Origin: an uncultured Oscillospiraceae bacterium
Lineage (GTDB): Bacteria; Bacillota; Clostridia; Oscillospirales; Oscillospiraceae
NCBI GenBank assembly: GCA_947631395.1
Contig: CANRLF010000013.1
Span: 1-59,429, forward strand
Direction of reading: 5' to 3'
Length of the DNA: 59,429 nucleotides
How positions within the stretch are numbered: the first letter of the stretch is position 1; every line of letters begins with the position of its first letter. This document shows positions 1 to 644 of the stretch, piece by piece. Made by a program: the position numbers and the translations under genes. A model generated the notes under the pieces. It saw only the letters and a program-made list of their open reading frames with translations. It was not told the DNA's origin and made no database searches.

Positions 1-76
1 CAGACAGACAGACAGACAGACAGACAGACAGACAGACAGACAGACAGACAGACAGACAGACAGACAGACAGACAGA
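1..76 (+). repeat. (CAGA)19 tetranucleotide microsatellite at window edge
   Basis: Nineteen perfect CAGA units occupy the window start; the tract may be longer beyond the edge. Because the unit is 4 nt, all three forward frames read the same stop-free Gln-Thr-Asp-Arg cycle. The tract passes without a stop into three different downstream C-terminal endings (see 1-120, 119-310 and 311-644). Tetranucleotide tracts inside or before methyltransferase genes are known phase-variation devices in other bacteria. Here the tract lies near the gene's 3' end, not the start. That it is translated is inferred, because the upstream gene body lies outside the window. Confidence 0.95.
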
Positions 77-120
77 AGATTACGCCTTACTTCAGAATCA
101 TTATCAGGCGCAAGGTGTAA
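1..120 (+). CDS. EcoRI-family adenine methyltransferase, C-terminal end (partial), frame-1 ending
   Basis: In forward frame 1 the CAGA tract encodes repeating QTDR and continues into QKITPYFRIIIRRKV, stopping with TAA at 118-120. The last residues match the terminal strand motif Y-x-R-[IL]-x-[IL]-[RK]-R that also ends the two cassettes downstream. This terminal motif and the GVPITF-DKYNPEQF module are what I recognise from the EcoRI-like adenine-specific methyltransferase family. The catalytic part would lie before position 1 and is not visible. In this frame the tract would act as a hydrophilic spacer before the final strand. The assignment rests on family resemblance of the tail and on the neighbouring cassettes. 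Confidence 0.6.
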   Translation, partial: QTDRQTDRQTDRQTDRQTDRQTDRQKITPYFRIIIRRKV

Positions 121-310
121 TGGAATCATGGGAGTGCCAATTACCTTCATTGACAAGTACAACCCAGAACAGTTCACCATTATTGGAGCAACAGAAAGCG
201 AAGGAAAAGGATTCTCCACCGGATTGTGGGATTCCACGAGTGGAATTGCCCAGCCAGTTGTTGCAGGGGAAAGAAAGTACAAACGCTTGTTTATCAAGAG
301 AAGGATGTAG
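119..310 (+). CDS. Alternative C-terminal cassette 1 of EcoRI-family methyltransferase (frame 2)
   Basis: Forward frame 2 is open from the CAGA tract through NGIMGVPITFIDKYNPEQF and a unique middle part to a KYKRLFIKRRM end with TAG at 308-310. It can be read only if the tract places the upstream gene in frame 2. An internal ATG at 128 exists but has no Shine-Dalgarno sequence, and a free-standing 60-residue protein looks unlikely. The module shares 18 of 21 residues with cassette 2, while 11 codons differ only synonymously. The duplication is therefore old and kept at protein level, which argues against simple decay. Confidence 0.65.
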   Translation, partial: NGIMGVPITFIDKYNPEQFTIIGATESEGKGFSTGLWDSTSGIAQPVVAGERKYKRLFIKRRM

Positions 311-644
311 CGGTATTATGGGTGTTCCGATTACTTTTTTGGATAAGTATAATCCAGAACAATTTGAAATTGTTGGAATTACACTAGGAAATACGGTAGA
401 ATATGCTATGACCGTAATTTATGAAAATGCTGTTCAGCACAATCAAGATGGAACAGAACAGGGCGGAGGAAAGGTCAATACAAGAGCAACAATTCGCTTT
501 TTAGAGAAGCCGTCCAATAAAGTGTATTATACAGCTGACAATGTGGACGGATATTTGATTAGTGTATACCCGCGTATACTTATTAGGAGGAAGAAAAATA
601 ATGAAAATAGAGCCGAAGCTAATCAAGGTCAAAGATGTTTTTGA
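311..644 (+). CDS. Alternative C-terminal cassette 2 of EcoRI-family methyltransferase (frame 3)
   Basis: Forward frame 3 is open from the CAGA tract, crosses cassette 1 out of frame for about 60 codons without a stop, and enters GIMGVPITFLDKYNPEQF at about 317. It continues through a variable segment of about 70 residues, to a YPRILIRRK motif and a TAA ending at 644. The variable segment is unlike that of cassette 1. The end overlaps the start of the DUF262-HNH gene at 601, suggesting translational coupling. An ATG at 120 is in this frame but has no good ribosome site. As a free-standing protein it would lack all catalytic motifs; a swap-in C-terminus is the better reading. Confidence 0.65.

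Follow-up and report, generated by a model that had tools for sequence, protein, structure and literature searches.

The locus and its three endings

The DNA considered here, hereafter the window, is a stretch of 59,429 nucleotides (nt) from an uncultured Oscillospiraceae bacterium (assembly GCA_947631395.1, contig CANRLF010000013.1, here C13, positions 1 to 59,429). It starts at base 1 of the contig, inside a tandem CAGA repeat, which is followed by three alternative C-terminal endings of a DNA methyltransferase, one in each reading frame, and by the gene of a partner nuclease (Table 1). From comparison of the sequences, we consider it very probable that this arrangement is a three-way, repeat-driven selector of the C-terminus of an EcoRI-type adenine methyltransferase, which forms one half of a restriction-modification pair.

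Positions 1-76 of the window are a perfect (CAGA)19 array, and reading from stop to stop past it leads in frame 1 to 118-120, in frame 2 to 308-310 and in frame 3 to 642-644, just as a preliminary description of this DNA had given the tract and the stops beginning at 118, 308 and 642. The same description emphasized that the tract is stop-free in all three frames; this is true of the tract, but it is automatic for a unit that is not a multiple of three, since every frame then encodes the same cyclic peptide, QTDR, and it is hence uninformative. The informative part is that frame 3 crosses cassette 1 without a stop, which is weak evidence in the window alone (chance 0.07 by synonymous-codon shuffle) but strong over the 18 loci discussed below.

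The repeat, whose units in different loci are 2, 4 or 5 nt long, sits just before the last beta-strand of the C-terminal module of the methyltransferase. Past it, frame 1 completes the native module, frame 2 bypasses that module and appends a second complete one restarting at GxMGVPITFLDKYNP, and frame 3 traverses the second module out of frame and appends a third. As the modules are 3n+1 nt apart, and the stop of each is embedded in the start of the next, each module lies one frame further on. The Pfam family EcoRI_methylase (PF13651; curated cut-off 26.4 bits) is matched in frame 2 by residues 40-100 (profile positions 277-344 of 345, E-value 2.7e-10, 40.5 bits) and in frame 3 by residues 103-154 (profile positions 277-328, E-value 2.7e-12, 47.1 bits); the frame 1 piece of 39 amino acids, scanned on its own, has no Pfam match.

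Table 1. Repeat tract, alternative endings, junctions and partner gene at the start of the window
Feature	Position	Strand	Description
(CAGA)n tract	1..76	+	Peptide (QTDR)n whatever the frame; cut by the contig end, at least 76 nt
Ending 1 (frame 1)	77..120	+	Last strand ...ITPYFRIIIRRKV; module begins on contig C58 (FRKGNDEKDLTYT...); stop 118-120
Ending 2 / cassette 1 (frame 2)	116..310	+	CNGIMGVPITFIDKYNPEQF...ATESEGKGF...KYKRLFIKRRM; stop 308-310; frame 3 is open throughout as well
Ending 3 / cassette 2 (frame 3)	306..644	+	CSGIMGVPITFLDKYNPEQF...ITLGNTV...YPRILIRRKK...; stop 642-644, overlapping the next gene
Junction 1	116..147	+	Stop of ending 1 (TAA) inside the CNGIMGVPIT coding start of ending 2
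Junction 2	306..337	+	Stop of ending 2 (TAG) inside the CSGIMGVPIT coding start of ending 3; 190 nt (3n+1) after junction 1
Partner nuclease gene	601..1725	+	374 amino acids; GmrSD_N (DUF262) + HNH; PADLOC REase_II (Type II restriction enzyme)

The upstream methyltransferase

The gene that feeds the tract had been presumed to be a methyltransferase lying outside the window, and it was recovered at the end of another contig of the same assembly. Elsewhere in the 62 contigs, a 20-nt CAGA pattern occurs only where contig C58 ends, and the tract there also measures 76 nt; because both contigs carry 76 nt of it, the assembler appears to have broken inside the tract, and the count of 19 units is probably an assembly limit and not a measured copy number. 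By eye, C58 contains tRNA genes, a GMP synthase gene and then the EcoRI-type adenine methyltransferase entering the tract. The latter matches PF13651 in two pieces (298.6 and 137.2 bits, cut-off 26.4) and has the NPPF catalytic motif (TNPPFSLF in methyltransferase P0001), and its frame is still open where the tract begins, with no stop in between (...ETIY TDRQ TDRQ...; locus L009, 4190-4652), so that the earlier proposal, which a stop there would have refuted, withstands this check. When C58 and C13 were joined by script with 18-22 units, copy numbers with n mod 3 = 0 gave ending 1 (stop 120), those with n mod 3 = 1 gave cassette 2 (stop 644) and those with n mod 3 = 2 gave cassette 1 (stop 310), which supports the idea that copy number modulo 3 picks one of three C-termini.

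Conservation of the layout across loci

Among the 80 loci collected as nearest to the nuclease of the window, 22 have several endings, a proportion that is not to be read as a frequency in nature. Two more (L014 and L023) were found by a search for relatives, among the 13 genomes with the nuclease, apart from the window's own, out of 149 searched, and together with the window they make 25 multi-ending loci. A tract is in view in 23 of these, the others being L032, in which the tract is under the length limit and has a deletion beside it, and L046, in which the 65 nt of contig before ending 1 hold no tract. All frames reach a complete end of the [YF]xR[IVL]xI type in 19/23, and three different modules are reached in 15 of these 19. 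In L029, L036, L043 and L056, the same native last strand is restored in two frames via a short duplicated tail 40-43 nt apart, amounting to a 2:1 choice. In the 15 loci where contigs bridge from the gene to the tract, the latter comes after 330-410 codons of open upstream frame.

The unit of the tract is CAGA (in any phase) in 14 loci, AG in six, and AGCA, AACGG or AGCAG in one each. A scan for units of 1-9 nt within 900 nt before the nuclease in 104 loci (88 with the full 900) detected no unit of 3, 6 or 9 nt and, outside the multi-ending loci, only the repeats of L062 (A9) and L088 (TC). Two single-ending loci have repeats that resemble an ordinary on/off switch and were not counted, namely L064 (8-nt repeat at 2178-2235, just before the methyltransferase frame) and L088 from Campylobacter concisus (TC tract at 3329-3346, in the first half of the gene). 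A tract of fixed length, which would have spoken against switching, is contradicted between loci of different species, where lengths range from 20 to 107 nt with differing units, several being cut by contig ends, and one genome per species was compared. Between L029 and L032, which are about 98% identical, the tract lengths differ, and a deletion of about 217 bp in L032 near 3600 abuts the tract.

By record, the 22 named loci comprise 19 from Bacillota and three from Spirochaetota (L038, L046 and L050), although the names of metagenome bins can be wrong. Many come from animal guts, and the records name Ruminococcus, Faecalibacterium, Lachnospiraceae and Spirochaetes. Most are metagenome assemblies, with the tract at base 1 of the contig in 7/23, and the isolates L028, L039 and L041 carry the layout on long contigs. 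Isolates with the device include Ruminococcus bromii 5AMG, Alterileibacterium massiliense and Hydrogenoanaerobacterium saccharovorans An564. Mapped on a tree of 58 selected nuclease rows, the trait requires eight changes, at least six of them on well-supported branches. As a separate observation, in L082 (region 1198-1530) the methyltransferase ends at 1359 and is followed, in another frame, by two more YARILIRR-type end motifs, with no tract seen; they are perhaps relics of a cassette array.

Selection on the reading frames

Wherever two full cassettes are present (18 loci), the cassette starts are spaced by 3n+1 nt (157, 160, 166, 172, 187 or 190 nt), and each of these loci keeps its middle cassette open in the frame of the third ending, as against none of 65 ordinary endings taken as controls (62 of them distinct; L037 and L107 are identical in sequence) and an expectation of 0.69 of 18 under a synonymous shuffle. 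In the remaining frame, the middle cassette is open in 0/18 loci, and the controls in 2/65. Because the loci are related, the result was also counted by module type: the middle slot is filled by four unrelated types, and the mean shuffle probability of each, multiplied once, comes to about 2e-6. Within module types, including two phage loci, middle copies are open in 20/20 cases and last-or-only copies in 2/18, while modules in the last slot are open in that frame in 2/25 cases, L043 and L030, whose modules belong to a type found in the middle slot of other loci. In endings 2 and 3, third codon positions carry an excess of the substitutions (third-position ratios of 3.25, 3.78, 3.65 and 3.79 in groups of seven, eight, six and four loci), which shows purifying selection, so both are selected as protein.

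The entry frame is known in 15 assemblies, L023 being left out since its contig starts 82 nt before the tract. Ending 1 is the state of L041, L042, L045 and L056, ending 2 that of L028, L029, L039, L040, L043 and L053, and ending 3 that of L036, L050 and L054 (truncated), while L030 and L033 reach no ending. One common module trio is found in L028, L041, L045 and L054, in states 2, 1, 1 and 3, respectively, and these different states fit switching, with no strain seen to switch.

Modules as ordinary C-termini and their structural setting

The endings are not peculiar to multi-ending loci. By loose single-linkage clustering, without chance control, 47 cassettes (those of the two phage loci included) fall into 18 types, and for 30 of the 47, in ten types, at least one of the 60 single-ending methyltransferases examined has a related module as its sole C-terminus. 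A module of the same kind as ending 1 of the window (KFRKG..DKDL..PYFRI) is, by eye, the sole C-terminus in L076, L087, L098 and L082 (there as EFRKG..), cassette 1 is of the type that forms the only ending of L037, L107 and L112, and cassette 2 of the type that forms the only ending of L114.

In the predicted structure of the L037 enzyme (mean predicted local distance difference test score, pLDDT, 84.5), the variable block lies between two strands, 308-313 and 345-350, and structure comparison matches the catalytic domain ahead of it with KsgA/Dim1- and M.TaqI-type enzymes. In M.TaqI, the recognition domain occupies the corresponding position, after the catalytic domain. A second variable block lies in the middle of the protein, at residues about 205-240 (alignment A2), and in a set of 51 methyltransferases, 11 C-terminal types have two or more members, 8 of which pair with more than one type of middle block, which suggests that specificity may be combinatorial. 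No solved relative was found by sequence, either with phmmer and the N-terminal piece (E-value 0.1) or with a profile of 46 methyltransferases searched against solved structures, which returned only unrelated names at E-values of 0.35-0.76. A Foldseek search with the ending-2 model found nothing at an E-value of 0.001 or better, and a VIA-align look with the single-ending model listed rows mostly over residues 10-248, hardly covering the C-terminal module, so that this is no evidence for a new fold.

Proposed mechanism and alternative explanations

According to the mechanism that we propose, gain or loss of a repeat unit by strand slippage would shift translation among the three endings. The modules would serve as target-recognition units, such that each state would methylate a different sequence, and the partner DUF262-HNH nuclease, or none in the phages, would work with whichever state is present. 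Loci with two endings may be variants of the same device, with either two ways of reaching the native ending or a state that is off. What is selected is most likely DNA specificity.

It is unlikely, in our estimation, that the three endings alter activity, stability, nuclease contact or evasion of an inhibitor instead of the DNA target. Such a role is favored by the lack of a solved homologue by sequence and by the low confidence of the ending-2 model, and we know of no recognition sequence for any of these methyltransferases; yet the short block is extremely diverse between conserved ends in otherwise similar enzymes, and its position after the catalytic domain, together with its presence in phages without a detected nuclease, fits target recognition best. 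The precedent in Helicobacter pylori, as far as excerpts of PMC3936762 describe it, also switches specificity. Quite improbable is a silent store, in which endings 2 and 3 would go untranslated and serve as donors for recombination into the first slot, the one expressed, leaving to the repeat only an on/off function. Module types do recur in different slots (LDRY, ATESEG and LANSAR each in slots 2 and 3), and the conserved module start and junction would favor recombination; however, a store needs neither an open middle cassette nor a fixed 3n+1 pitch, both of which are kept in 18/18 loci, the module types are mostly closed when last or sole (2/18 open), and some assemblies are in the frame of ending 2 or of ending 3. 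Finally, the layout could reflect gene decay or an artefact of assembly, in which a runaway repeat has disrupted the methyltransferase and the sequence after it consists of chance remnants. The frameshift described below, the preponderance of metagenome assemblies and the tracts at base 1 of their contigs would suit this, but the isolates with the layout on long contigs, the purifying selection in endings 2 and 3 and the open frames in all 18 loci make it highly improbable as a general account, although the window's own copy may be such a case.

Several observations nevertheless weigh against a three-way selector of specificity. The methyltransferase of the window's genome is frameshifted near C58 position 4190 (pieces at L009 3559-4200 and 4190-4652), about 130 codons ahead of the tract, where relatives such as L040 read through in one frame; the frameshift is either real or an assembly error, and because of it this copy may no longer be active. 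As the loci are related, their counts are not independent. Four of the 23 break the full three-ending rule, as one frame leads nowhere in L030 and L033, the native tail is lost in L038, and an early stop interrupts ending 3 in L054, and the four loci with the duplicated tail (L029, L036, L043 and L056) yield only two different endings. Within-strain change of tract length was not seen in this comparison of one genome per species. A class-wide sample of 391 genomes contained five new nuclease loci, none of them (0/5) with several endings, and therefore the device is uncommon. In an AlphaFold2 model of an ending-2 protein (L040), the pLDDT falls below 50 over most of the second module and only its last strand is placed, too little to define how the module docks, and in view of the second variable block, part of the specificity may lie outside the C-terminal module.

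The partner nuclease and its neighborhood

The nuclease gene overlaps ending 3, and a probable ribosome binding site (AGGAGG, 585-590, by eye) lies within the RR codons of that ending. Its product contains GmrSD_N (DUF262; 67.8 bits, cut-off 33.2), and a Pfam scan up to an E-value of 0.01 finds HNH and HNH_5 at residues 328-373, at its C-terminus, and no GmrSD_C/DUF1524, the C-terminal nuclease domain that defines GmrSD-type nucleases. A Type IV reading, which DUF262 had suggested, was dropped in view of the Pfam HNH domain at the C-terminus and the PADLOC class REase_II.

Nucleases that are 97-99% identical stand beside unrelated C-terminal modules (L083/L086 99%, L101/L102 98%, L092/L101 98%; gene near 4001), which raises the question of how the nuclease knows its target. 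The methyltransferase bodies of L083 and L086 are only 67% identical, and an exchange may therefore have involved the entire gene and not the module alone. Across all pairs, nuclease identity still correlates weakly with module similarity (Spearman 0.28). These comparisons hint at a nuclease that does not itself carry the specificity, though they do not prove it. More tentatively, we envisage that a cell may draw at random from three methylation specificities, that a nuclease without specificity of its own may follow the module of the methyltransferase, so that restriction and protection would switch together without self-damage, and that phages may have acquired the three-way methyltransferase alone, leaving out the nuclease, as a shield of changing shape that protects them from restriction. 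A nuclease that follows the module would explain the near-identical nucleases beside unrelated modules.

In the window, G+C is 0.38-0.42 in the restriction-modification block (1-1750) as against 0.55-0.61 beyond it (2001-3500), and a tRNA-Pro gene lies at the border (2091-2167), as for acquired DNA. Upstream, L009 535-1169 presumably encodes a RelB/DinJ-type antitoxin, which it resembles, followed by an interrupted ParE-like partner. Far downstream, at 42030-42189 of the window, a repeat finder flagged tandem CCTGAG-like units.

Phage copies

A scan of viral contigs for the junctions revealed the full layout on two 37-kb contigs from one sample (L117 and L118). At L117 5401-6893, four CAGA units are present and the locus sits between phage exonuclease and terminase genes, with a portal gene present as well; in L118 (reverse strand, about 6055-6650 of the reversed locus), integrase and endolysin genes are present and, by eye, a run of A9 replaces the tract. 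Within the stretches retrieved from these contigs (11.5 and 12.9 kb), no nuclease relative was detected. A survey of viral methyltransferase relatives covered the best 80 of 331 stretches encoding one, L118 lying outside those 80, and among them only L199, which is the same contig as L117, has several endings. M motifs occur in 73/84 viral loci scanned. Two further loci, L115 and L116, with one junction each and no complete gene in view, were dropped.

Comparison with known systems

The preliminary description held that, to its author's knowledge, a three-way selector at the 3' end is not a described arrangement. The wider principle has been published, since both C-terminal phase variation and repeat-driven switching of specificity appear in PMC2823697, PMC5320596 and PMC3936762, which, like the other papers on switching cited in this section, are represented here by excerpts. 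The form with three modules, one per frame, was not found in text searches of open-licence PMC papers, nor were repeats in EcoRI-type methyltransferases; PF13651 is named in a single paper among them (PMC7248222), and the commercial EcoRI methyltransferase does appear there, employed as a tool (PMC8437040). The repeat-driven methylation switches in the literature consulted come mostly from mucosal pathogens. Seven of the 23 tracts lie at the very start of a contig, and short-read assemblies therefore tend to break there, so that such a switch is easily overlooked.

In Type III mod phasevarions, the repeat is typically early in the gene and out-of-frame means off, whereas the tract here comes late, after the 330-410 codons given above. 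These phasevarions and the inverting Type I hsdS systems share with the present loci a random switching of DNA methylation in the population, but mod is turned on or off by a repeat in its reading frame, and hsdS exchanges modules by inverted-repeat recombination and not by frame (PMC7394358). In Neisseria gonorrhoeae, the length of the poly-G tract of M.NgoAV/hsdS1 alters methylation specificity by truncating or fusing the specificity subunit, in a Type I system with two active forms plus inactive ones (PMC9577141). The partner nuclease, in turn, shares the GmrSD_N domain with GmrSD-type (DUF262) nucleases and differs from them by its Pfam HNH end and its PADLOC Type II class.

Parallels are also found in C-terminal phase variation, which dates as a proposal from 2010, with a description in the gonococcus following in 2016 (PMC2823697, PMC5320596). 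The present locus has the same traits, namely a late repeat, a unit not divisible by three and distinct C-termini in three frames, and in Helicobacter canadensis and N. gonorrhoeae, too, repeat length picks among the C-termini of three frames; the alternative ends there are mostly short by-products of the frame or fusions to the next gene, whereas the endings here are protein modules that are homologous, under selection and offset by a fixed frame step. In the H. pylori Type IIG enzymes (JHP1272 and HP1353-HP1354; Hpy99XIV and HpyAXVI), a late repeat, the second homopolymer, decides on an extra C-terminal recognition domain and thereby changes the methylated motif, as seen by single-molecule real-time (SMRT) sequencing (PMC3936762). 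The modules here, putative recognition domains, are hypervariable, follow the catalytic domain and are shared with single-ending relatives. The H. pylori switch is a homopolymer that yields two active forms, differing in the presence of one extra domain, in a single-chain enzyme that has a separate first on/off repeat, while the present loci offer three complete alternative modules, one per frame, to an EcoRI-type methyltransferase with a separate nuclease gene. All three frames of one stretch of DNA are kept useful at once, so that a cheap, reversible slip can choose among three forms of an enzyme; if the modules set the DNA target, these bacteria would possess a three-position epigenetic and defense switch.
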